The position numbers and the translations under genes are program-made. The notes under the pieces are model-generated. The model was not told the origin of the DNA. It searched no databases and saw only the letters and a list, made by a program, of their open reading frames with translations. This document shows, one piece after another, positions 9,574 through 12,488 of a stretch of DNA of 36,594 nt. The stretch lies in NCBI GenBank assembly GCA_029553505.1, contig JAKPKY010000165.1, forward strand, positions 1-36,594, read 5' to 3'. Origin of the DNA: Planctomycetota bacterium. Lineage in GTDB: Bacteria; Planctomycetota; Phycisphaerae; SM23-33. Each line of letters begins with the position of its first letter. Position 1 is the stretch's first letter.

Positions 9574-9618
9574 AAGCGGGCGAAGGGATTCGAACCCTCG
9601 ACGTCCAGCTTGGGAAGC
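9574..9618 (-). repeat. Distal attachment-site copy: truncated 3' half of tRNA-Gly
   Basis: 45 bases identical to 12444-12488. On the minus strand this is the 3' half of tRNA-Gly(CCC): part of the anticodon arm including the CCC anticodon, variable region, T arm with TTCGAAT loop and acceptor 3' strand. The 5' half is absent (sequence diverges at 9619), so it is not a functional tRNA. This is the expected footprint of integration into the tRNA anticodon loop. A further palindromic stretch (TCCTGC...GCAGGA, 9549-9574) lies just outside. Confidence 0.85.
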
Positions 9619-9823
9619 AGAATCACCTCGGTTCTATCGCTCACTCAAAGCAACACTTACGCCGACGCCATTCTGCGCTGGTACGAATCCTTGCACGTCC
9701 ACAGTGGTACAAACGCTGTATCGCTCTGAGTCGCCCGGAATATCAATAATGCGTTGGCGCTTAGCCACTCATGCCGTGATTGCGGGGCGAGCAGCCTGTC
9801 GTTAGGATGTTGTCGGGGCAACT

Positions 9824-10918
9824 ATGGAGCTTTTCTCACCCAGCATTGAAGAAGGTCTGACGCTGGCCCAGCGGGTCGATCCCAAGTACGCGCCAGCTTG
9901 GCAGGGTAAGACGCCGCAAGCGCAAGCGGCGCTGGCCATGTACTTTCTGCCGCATGGATCGAAGAAGACGTTTCTTGGCCCCACCCGGCCGCGAGTCATC
10001 AAGTGGTATTGTCCCTTTGCTAGCCAGAGCAGCTTACCGAGCGGACATCGGTACTGCATCAACGTTTACACCGGCTGCTCGCATGCTTGCGAATATTGTT
10101 ACGCATCCGCTTACGAGCCGCCCCAACCAGCCATGAAACGCGACTTCACCCGATTGCTGCAAAAAGACCTTGCCGACTTGGAACGTTTCGACGTACCGGC
10201 CGCTCCGATTCACCTCTCCAACAGCACCGATTCATTCCAGCCGCTGGAAGCATCTGCCGGCCACACGAGGCTGGCGCTACAGCGAATTCTTGACCATCGC
10301 CGCAGGTTTACCAGTGTCATTGTACTGACGAAAAACCCACGTCTGGCCGTCGAATTGGGCTGCGTTGATCTGTTTCTCAAACTCAACTCGTCGCAGCCGG
10401 GCTTTCTCATCGAGGTCAGCCTAGCCTTCTGGCGCGAAGATGCTCGACATGAATACGACCCTGGCGCACCGAGCATTCAGAATCGAATCGAAGGCGTTCG
10501 ACAACTTCGTCGAGCGGGCGTGCCGGTCGTGCTCAGAATTGACCCGCTGTTTCCCCGCTTGGCGTCTACGGACGGCAAAGCGACCGCAACGTATCAGGAT
10601 TGGGGACTACCACAGCCGCAAAACATTGAAGACCTAGAACAACTGGTTGCCTTCGGCGCGGAGAATGGCATCCATCACATCGTCTATTCGCCGGCCAAGA
10701 TCGTCCAGCCGCGAATGCGCCCGCTTTCATCCACCATGCAGAAGATGCGGTCGCTTTACGAATCGGTGGCTGCGCCGGAGCGATTGATGTTTCGCGGCGG
10801 AAGTTGGCGATTGCCGCCATCAGTTCAGTCAACTGTGACTGGCCCATTGCTGGATATATGCCGTCGCAACGGCGTCCCGGCGAAGTGCTGCAAGCAGAAC
10901 CTCATCGAGACACCGTAG
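9824..10918 (+). CDS. SPL-like radical SAM protein
   Basis: 364 residues. The iron-sulfur motif CxxxCxxC is at Cys85-Cys89-Cys92 in YTGCSHACEYCYASAY, typical of the spore-photoproduct-lyase-like/Rv2578c group of radical SAM proteins. Other family-like parts: HLSNSTDSFQPLE (about 127-139), an ILTKNPRL-like strand (VIVLTKNPRLAVELG), the EVSLAFW strand, a second-half segment IEGVRQLRRAGVPVVLRIDPLFP, and a C-terminal ICRRNGVPAKCCKQ with three Cys that could hold a further cluster or disulfide. Such enzymes use S-adenosylmethionine and a [4Fe-4S] cluster to start radical chemistry; SPL itself repairs thymine photoproducts, but most relatives have unknown substrates. First gene inside the tRNA-Gly island; lower GC than its surroundings, consistent with horizontal transfer. 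Convergent with the methyltransferase-like gene, so not one transcript. The substrate is unknown. Confidence 0.88.
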   Translation: MELFSPSIEEGLTLAQRVDPKYAPAWQGKTPQAQAALAMYFLPHGSKKTFLGPTRPRVIKWYCPFASQSSLPSGHRYCINVYTGCSHACEYCYASAYEPPQPAMKRDFTRLLQKDLADLERFDVPAAPIHLSNSTDSFQPLEASAGHTRLALQRILDHRRRFTSVIVLTKNPRLAVELGCVDLFLKLNSSQPGFLIEVSLAFWREDARHEYDPGAPSIQNRIEGVRQLRRAGVPVVLRIDPLFPRLASTDGKATATYQDWGLPQPQNIEDLEQLVAFGAENGIHHIVYSPAKIVQPRMRPLSSTMQKMRSLYESVAAPERLMFRGGSWRLPPSVQSTVTGPLLDICRRNGVPAKCCKQNLIETP

Positions 10919-10930
10919 CGTCACTTCGTG

Positions 10931-11830
10931 TCAGGCAATCGCGACCACGGAATTAGCTGCCGCAATTTCTGAAATGGCCGAGCACGAGCGGCAATATGTA
11001 TAGGTGTGCTCGGAGTTCTGATTCTCGCTGTCGTAAACACGCTGCTTAAGTTCGGCCATCTCGGCCGCTACGCCCATTGCATGGCATATCTCGTCGTGCA
11101 GGTCTTCACGGAACTTATCCTGAGTCAAGAGCAGGTGGCCACCGTTTGTATTTCCTGCCTGCGCTAATAGGCGAATTGCCTTCGTAGTGCCATCAACGCC
11201 TATCTGCTCCGACAGCGGAACCATGACATAGCCCAAACAGCAAATGTCATAAGGAGCTGTCATATGCGCAACGCGACGGAAATGCGTGTTGCTATCCGGG
11301 AAAGGAGTGGATAGCGGCAAGATGCGGCCAATTGACGCCCGGCCCGTTCTCGCACGATTATACCTTTCCAGGATGGCACGTCCTTCGGCGAGACATATAT
11401 CAGATGTGTCGTTCAGTACGCAATGGACAGTGATCACGCCACTTCCTCGCAATTTGCCCGTCTTACTCGTGACCTCCAATGCGGCGGATGCTAAATCGGC
11501 AATTGCAAGCGAGGCCACCGCTGGACCGCTTCCGACATCAGCAATGTGAATAGAGCCGCGTTGTGCAGCCGATTCGAATGCTCGCCCAGAAAAATACTCG
11601 ATCAAGCTATCCTGAATCTGAAAGTAATGTCGGGCGAAGAAGGCGTCCAGAAAGGCGCGAAGACCCTCCGGACTCGTCGGATACCGCCGTTCATCCTCAG
11701 ATACTTCCTTCTTGGGCAAGCGTCTGAGCGAATCAGCAAATAGGCTTTCGGCGGATTCCCGTAATGTCCAGATATCCTCCGGGGCAACGAGTGCCCTAAT
11801 TGCGGACGCGCGATCACGGTCATAGCTCAT
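10931..11830 (-). CDS. Predicted SAM-dependent methyltransferase-like protein, function unknown
   Basis: 299 residues from the ATG at 11830, preferred over an ATG 84 bases upstream because the protein then begins MSYDRDRASAIRALV and a purine-rich GGAAAGAGAG tract precedes it. The centre has a Rossmann-like SAM-binding motif, IHIADVGSGPAVASLAIADLA (about 94-114), followed by a strand ITVHCVLNDTSD whose acidic residues could bind the ribose, and later YDICCLGYVMVPLSEQ and GGHLLLTQDK strands. The N-terminal part is helical (EDIWTLRESAESLFADSLRRLPKKE; FARHYFQIQDSLIEYF). The C terminus has a CRSC pair. It is not the usual partner (TcmP) of island-borne radical SAM genes as far as I can tell. Its promoter would lie in the AT-richer 11831-11990 stretch. 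Cargo of the tRNA-Gly island, tail to tail with the radical-SAM gene. The methyltransferase reading is moderate; the target is unknown. Confidence 0.65.
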   Translation of the reverse strand: MSYDRDRASAIRALVAPEDIWTLRESAESLFADSLRRLPKKEVSEDERRYPTSPEGLRAFLDAFFARHYFQIQDSLIEYFSGRAFESAAQRGSIHIADVGSGPAVASLAIADLASAALEVTSKTGKLRGSGVITVHCVLNDTSDICLAEGRAILERYNRARTGRASIGRILPLSTPFPDSNTHFRRVAHMTAPYDICCLGYVMVPLSEQIGVDGTTKAIRLLAQAGNTNGGHLLLTQDKFREDLHDEICHAMGVAAEMAELKQRVYDSENQNSEHTYTYCRSCSAISEIAAANSVVAIA

Positions 11831-12443
11831 AGTTGGTTCTCTCTTTCCGTAGGCACGACTCTTGAAGTGATGAGGCGGTTTTTGATATGTCGTACAATAA
11901 TCCCCGTGCAACACTGGTATTATGCCGTCGTTTTCTATTTATGCAACAGAAAATATAGTTTCCCGCACAGCATATAACCTCGCCCCCTTCATCCGCCTAA
12001 CATCATGTACTTAAGCCGCTTACGCCGCAACATCGGTATCCAGTTCCTTCTTGGTTCTGAATCACAAGTTGGTGGCGGGAACAGTTACCCGCCGTGGCGC
12101 TCACCTGCATGCCGCACGTTGGTGGCGATTCCTGGCAGCCAATCCCTCCCGACTGCTGATGTCCAGCTTCCGGCGCACGTACATCATCGACACCGGCATC
12201 GCCACCGCGAATGGAATGGCCGGAATTGTTGGCGTTTTCGCATGGTTCTTGGCCGGGCCGTTGGTGACCAACTCGGTGCCCGACAGCAGTCCACCAGAAT
12301 GCGAGAAACGACGCGATTGTCCTCTATTGTCAAGACCTGTACCGAAAGCGCTCAGCCACCGAAGACTTTGCCTGATTGGCGGTTACGGGAACACTGTCGC
12401 CGATTGTCAACGCCCGTCGCGTCGTGGCAACTGCTGACATGAA
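11831..12443. other. Non-coding or decayed arm of the island
   Basis: About 610 bases. 11831-12000 is AT-richer and probably holds the promoter of the methyltransferase-like gene. 12001-12443 has overlapping open frames of up to 145 codons, but none looks like a known protein: one plus frame (from 12051) contains a short hydrophobic run (IVGVFAWFLAGPLV) inside Arg/Pro-rich sequence. Best read as remnant DNA of a longer element; a lost integrase could have been here, but I see no trace of its catalytic motifs. Confidence 0.4.
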
Positions 12444-12488
12444 AAGCGGGCGAAGGGATTCGAACCCTCGACGTCCAGCTTGGGAAGC
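12444..12488 (-). repeat. Proximal attachment-site copy within tRNA-Gly
   Basis: Second copy of the 45-bp direct repeat (identical to 9574-9618). It forms the 3' half of the intact tRNA-Gly, plus one base beyond its 3' end. Confidence 0.85.

Follow-up and report, generated by a model that had tools for sequence, protein, structure and literature searches.

An integrase-less island at tRNA-Gly(CCC) of a planctomycete shares its attachment arm with integrase-bearing islands and is probably a non-autonomous integrative cassette

How does a piece of DNA that bears the marks of site-specific integration into a tRNA gene come to reside there, when no integrase is found within it? The question is raised by a small island at positions 9574–12488 of contig JAKPKY010000165.1 from a Planctomycetota bacterium of the class Phycisphaerae (assembly GCA_029553505.1). 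Positions 1 to 36,594 of this contig constitute the window, i.e., the whole stretch of DNA analysed; the contig (C29) belongs to a genome (G000) of 2.5 Mb in 264 contigs, which is 73% complete. The integration itself is well supported by the evidence below. As to its nature, the island is rather likely to be a non-autonomous integrative cassette that occupies the anticodon-loop site of tRNA-Gly(CCC) and works like a cis-mobilizable element (CIME).

Boundaries and target of the island

The two copies of the core, at 9574–9618 and 12444–12488 (both on the minus strand), are identical in 45 of 45 positions. All remaining repeats found between 7000 and 15000 are at most 32 nt long and at most 80% alike, which leaves this pair as the sole long exact repeat. 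A single intact tRNA-Gly(CCC) is detected by ARAGORN, at 12445–12516 (minus strand), i.e., at the right-hand copy only; this gene is the integration target. The right-hand copy, of attR type, is the 3' half of this gene, and the left-hand copy, of attL type, is a displaced 3' half with no intact tRNA. An exact 45-bp repeat that comprises half a tRNA is no chance match. The displaced fragment and the intact tRNA form direct repeats at the two ends in the correct orientation, the arrangement that defines a tRNA-targeted integrative element. The repeat takes in the 3' half of the tRNA, starting in the anticodon loop and reaching the 3' end, and the crossover is therefore one of the anticodon-loop type.

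The DNA bounded by the core repeats measures 2.83 kb and contains two real genes. Its GC content is 55.5%, compared with 63.3% in the left flank and 67.0% in the right flank. An open reading frame at 12005–12442 is not considered to be a gene; it is without a family match and overlaps the shared arm described below. These results agree with the initial annotation of this DNA, which had reported the exact 45-bp repeats at the same coordinates, the intact tRNA at one end, the lower GC between the repeats, a crossover in the anticodon loop, and two cargo genes without a recombinase.

Another occupant of the tRNA-Gly(CCC) site in a related genome

The only genome of the same genus searched (G001) matches the window at about 92% nucleotide identity on both sides, up to the repeats. 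On one contig, the left match includes the core to its final base, and an identical core thus closes the left flank there; on another, the right match restarts at the core and tRNA. The interior is unrelated to the island of the window, with 47–50% identity in a forced global alignment, i.e., background. Because the flanks match to the repeats with different DNA between them, the tRNA-Gly(CCC) site is a genuine integration hotspot.

The G001 occupant (L040 10015–19901, L056, and L041 7489–9965) comprises at least 18.6 kb plus 2.5 kb, both contig ends being assumed to belong to one island. It encodes AbiEi/AbiEii, a TIR protein of the pAgo-linked class, HmaC- and HmaB-like proteins, and an integrase-like gene that adjoins the tRNA and contains an assembly gap. 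The tRNA-Gly(CCC) gene is thus a defence-island site, and the other cargo that the initial annotation had proposed to seek there in relatives is present, together with a different integrase.

In another genome (G021:C82, L052 about 9900–10170), a short fragment of a tRNA-Gly acceptor end lies about 100 bp from an intact tRNA-Gly(CCC), and is possibly the scar of a lost island.

The tRNA-side arm and its motifs

The segment next to the right-hand core (12263–12443, plus strand) is common to integrase-bearing islands. When positions 12200–12446 were searched against 35 genomes of the family, relatives adjoining the identical 45-bp core were found in G016 (two contigs), G006, and G005. For these four tRNA-Gly(CCC) arms, the arm plus core is 73–84% identical to that of the window. 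Shorter matches lie at tRNA-Gly(TCC) in G016 and at tRNA-Pro(GGG) in G032 and G034. The two G016 arms, one with an adjacent integrase (C154) and one without (C61), are 94.5% identical.

The general layout of the arm is GTGACCAACTYGGTGCC, often present twice with starts 31 bp apart, followed by GCAGTCCACC. In the window, the motif reads GTGACCAACTCGGTGCC (12264–12280, plus strand) and is followed by GCAGTCCACC at 12286–12295. Across the class, the 17-bp motif was found at 38 sites and the reversed pattern at 2. Many single sites resemble ordinary sequence and are unconnected to tRNAs. The exact GCAGTCCACC extension occurs in seven places, plus G034 with one mismatch in the motif, all of them beside a tRNA or a tRNA core. 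In a genome of another family of the class (G051), a double motif lies beside tRNA-Gly(CCC) with a degenerate extension. This arrangement suggests that the motif repeats are candidate arm sites for an integrase. Neither the cargo nor the arm motif was found in viral contigs.

On one G034 contig (C383, L158 1936–2407), three tRNA-Pro fragments with 19–31 bp exact surround an intact tRNA-Pro(GGG); they are possibly scars of repeated integration.

Integrases linked to the arm

Full members of this planctomycete island family encode a tyrosine integrase of about 450–530 amino acids. The order on G016:C154 is a helix-turn-helix gene, a tyrosine integrase of 466 amino acids, the arm, and tRNA-Gly(CCC). 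An integrase 71% identical to that of G016:C154 lies about 5 kb from the equivalent arm at tRNA-Gly(CCC) on G006:C27, and a 42%-identical integrase directly precedes the short-form arm at tRNA-Pro on G032:C9. A further related integrase (48–50% identical to those of G016:C154 and G006:C27) lies about 240 bp from tRNA-Gly(CCC) on G006:C191.

The island of the window contains neither an integrase gene nor a remnant of one detectable by tblastn with four relevant integrases (best E value 0.64) or by Pfam (no match). As candidate helpers elsewhere in the same genome, three PF00589 matches were considered, one XerC/D-like and two forming a closely spaced pair on another contig; by eye, they are unlike the arm-linked integrase. 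Two tyrosine recombinase genes stand side by side on opposite strands on contig C258 of this genome (25501–26600; L063, L064).

Cargo genes

The first cargo gene (9824–10918, plus strand) encodes a radical SAM protein of 364 amino acids with a C-x3-C-x2-C motif, which resembles spore photoproduct lyase (SPL), a radical SAM DNA repair enzyme. The product scores under every curated family cut-off, including that of Pfam Radical_SAM (E value 5.5e-6). For the SPL families, it scores 21.8 bits versus a cut-off of 400 (TIGR04070) and 14.1 versus 27 (PF20903), and for the radical SAM mobile pair family TIGR04470, 50.4 bits versus 410. The likeness to SPL lies in the cysteine motif and in the predicted structure (predicted local distance difference test score, pLDDT, 89), of which SPL is the nearest relative; the nearest solved fold, 4k9r, has only about 11% sequence identity and a TM-score of 0.54–0.58. 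No relative was found by sequence in the PDB.

Relatives of this protein occur in Phycisphaerae, in other planctomycete assemblies, and in a few Verrucomicrobia. Orthologs within the family are 62–76% identical; near those of G016 and G005, no tRNA gene was found on the contigs. Comparison with two orthologs gives a nonsynonymous divergence (dN) of 0.14 and a synonymous divergence (dS) of 1.2–1.6; therefore, the gene is under purifying selection.

The second cargo gene (10931–11830, minus strand) is convergent with the first and encodes an orphan protein without a family match in profile searches. Its AlphaFold model (pLDDT 86) matches class I methyltransferases in Foldseek with an E value of 1e-6. 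The protein is rare, being found in 3 of 392 genomes of the phylum at E ≤ 0.001, of which one is the present genome and the other two are weak matches. Five additional loci have it next to the radical SAM gene, in a convergent orientation in four and upstream and divergent in the fifth (L111). In a G016 locus (C10, L104 9140–10020), the match is split into two overlapping pieces, which suggests a frameshift or an assembly error.

As to function, the pair may constitute a module for DNA-lesion processing or of a defence type. AbiEi, HipA, and PDC-S01 as neighbours in the relatives suggest, by association only, a defence or addiction setting. No PADLOC model of a known anti-phage defence system matches the cargo significantly, and no paper that joins 'radical SAM' with 'mobile pair' was found in the literature.

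Further small islands with the radical SAM gene

The comparison covered thirty loci that encode the radical SAM protein. In one of them (L118, VRUI01000044.1, 7888–9187), 44-bp repeats (37 exact) with the 3' end of tRNA-His bound an element of 1.26 kb, in which the radical SAM gene is the only gene and no integrase is present. In another (L113, JAFGKT010000041.1, 2650–11319), cores at 2650 and 5980 together with an intact tRNA-Met at 11244 mark off two elements in tandem. In the 3.3-kb element, a gene of the SPL family is accompanied by another radical SAM gene; in the 5.2-kb element, the radical SAM gene and the methyltransferase-fold gene are accompanied by a PDC-S01/DUF4143 ATPase. No recombinase is recognised in either, and the two share a similar arm before the core (95% identity over 91 bp including the core). 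The two radical SAM genes beside the L113 cassette are SPL-like and PA0069/Rv2578c-like, and their assignment to the mobile pair TIGR04470/04471 is rejected.

The L113 genome also encodes an integrase that is 62–65% identical to the arm-linked ones of G016 and G006 (L172 3971–5320). It lies on a contig other than that of the array (G397:C40), with no tRNA found nearby and without an arm of the L113 type. The L113 arm was found only within the tandem array itself, and this integrase was rejected as a helper.

A complete element of about 6.8 kb (L107, on G032:C9) lies between a 30-bp tRNA-Pro repeat (97%) and tRNA-Pro. It contains AbiEi, radical SAM, HipA, and integrase genes, with no relaxase among the genes scanned. 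In the window, L118, L113, and L107 alike, the radical SAM gene is oriented towards the 3' end of the tRNA.

Two further loci show repeats of another kind. In L103 (PMYM01000150.1, 6268–9638), direct repeats of about 350 bp (89%) enclose the radical SAM gene; a third, incomplete copy is present upstream, and no tRNA is involved. In L123 (JAFGRD010000011.1), the gene lies between 202-bp repeats (90%) at 369–570 and 3655–3856, both of which end in an apparent 5' half of tRNA-Arg, as identified by eye.

Origin and mobility of the cassette

If the island is a non-autonomous cassette, a tyrosine integrase encoded elsewhere would recombine its core with the 3' half of the tRNA, leaving the displaced fragment at 9574–9618 and the restored tRNA at 12445–12516. 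The integrase would be one of the arm-linked family, acting either in trans or from a partner in tandem; the cassette retains the tRNA-side arm of the planctomycete island family. The cassette is probably derived from, and movable by, this integrase family; its movement in trans or from a tandem partner, and its continued mobility, we infer. Several observations weigh against such an element. Neither an excised circle nor a perfect empty site was seen in the genomes compared, and no helper integrase of the arm-linked family was seen in the 73% of the genome represented. The left inner end (9619–9823) has no significant match to the corresponding ends of four other islands. Flanking tRNA repeats are absent from most of the 30 radical SAM loci, in some cases since the contigs end nearby.

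The initial annotation had left the choice between a satellite moved in trans and an island that decayed recently. The data lean to a non-autonomous cassette, because the first cargo gene is under selection, equivalent genes recur in other integrase-less mini-islands, and nearly identical arms occur in G016 with and without an integrase. It is nevertheless conceivable, though somewhat unlikely, that, in this lineage, an internal deletion removed the integrase of an autonomous island, which can no longer move. Loss of the integrase is the textbook origin of CIMEs (PMC5704250), the complete relative L107 has an equivalent radical SAM gene and an integrase beside the arm, and about 350 bp without a convincing gene separate the second cargo gene from the arm, where the integrase of the relatives sits. 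Such decay, however, has left no remnant of the integrase, both core copies are still exact, selection acts on the first cargo gene, and two other tRNAs, whose cores differ, harbour integrase-less cassettes with an equivalent gene.

Two explanations remain. That it is ordinary inherited sequence beside an old tRNA gene duplication might be argued from the repeat being half a tRNA gene and from the presence of the radical SAM gene in several members of the family. This is already disfavoured and very improbable, considering that different DNA adjoins the G001 flanks precisely at the core, that the GC gap is 8–11 points, and that the orthologs in G016 and G005 are not found near a tRNA gene. Vertical descent of the 2.9 kb, named at the outset as a possible refutation, fails on the first of these observations, and a tRNA duplication, also so named, leaves the arm common to integrase-bearing islands unexplained. 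An artefactual joining of two unrelated pieces at the repeated tRNA sequence could be suspected in so fragmented and incomplete a genome; it is hardly credible when a separate assembly (G001) has identical flank-core joints and other islands at the equivalent tRNA have the same arm beside it.

Relation to known elements

The non-autonomous cassette most closely resembles the CIMEs related to ICESt1 in streptococci, which retain attL and attR without recombination and transfer genes (PMC5704250, PMC7563491). The element of the window likewise retains both sites and lacks integration and transfer genes, its size falls within their range of 1.2–13 kb, and CIMEs may be in tandem at one site, as in L113. 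It differs in that its cargo recurs at several tRNAs and that descent from an integrative and conjugative element (ICE) or an integrative and mobilizable element (IME) is not established, no relaxase having been seen in the scanned genes of L107. In Islander, a tRNA island must contain an integrase (PMC4383910); like these islands, the present element ends in a 3' tDNA fragment and an intact tDNA and has the anticodon-centred crossover, but there is no integrase inside. Because its structure fits, ICE or IME descent is not established, and the integrase demanded by Islander is absent, it is described as CIME-like rather than filed as a member of either group. Clusters of attC sites lacking integron-integrases (CALIN) and miniature inverted-repeat transposable elements are also cargo or short DNA with recombination sites and no recombinase, thought to be moved by helpers (PMC11389934). 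Their sites are attC sites or terminal inverted repeats, in contrast to the tRNA cores with an arm seen here.

Elements of this kind are missed by design in censuses of tRNA-borne islands that require an integrase, such as Islander (PMC4383910). Since one cargo gene occurs both in cassettes lacking an integrase, at three tRNAs, and in one island that has it, integrase-less hitch-hiking as a stable lifestyle becomes directly testable. The findings also point to an undescribed enzyme pair, an SPL-like radical SAM protein and a methyltransferase-fold protein, beside AbiEi, HipA, or candidate-defence genes. A far-reaching and rather doubtful proposal would be that integrase-less tRNA cassettes, each with one to three genes and a terminal arm, form a class of their own in planctomycetes and related bacteria and are shuttled between tRNA sites by resident tyrosine integrases. 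Such a class would be a functional analogue of integron cassettes, with the SPL-like radical SAM gene as a preferred and selected cargo for DNA repair or defence.

Flanking genes

Both neighbours of the island are host genes. On the left is a sodium:solute symporter gene (7505–9475, plus strand; PF00474), whose product has 95% amino acid identity to that at the equivalent place in G001. On the right is a Gfo/Idh/MocA oxidoreductase gene (12661–13695, minus strand; PF01408), whose product has the same 95% amino acid identity to its counterpart beside the equivalent tRNA in G001.
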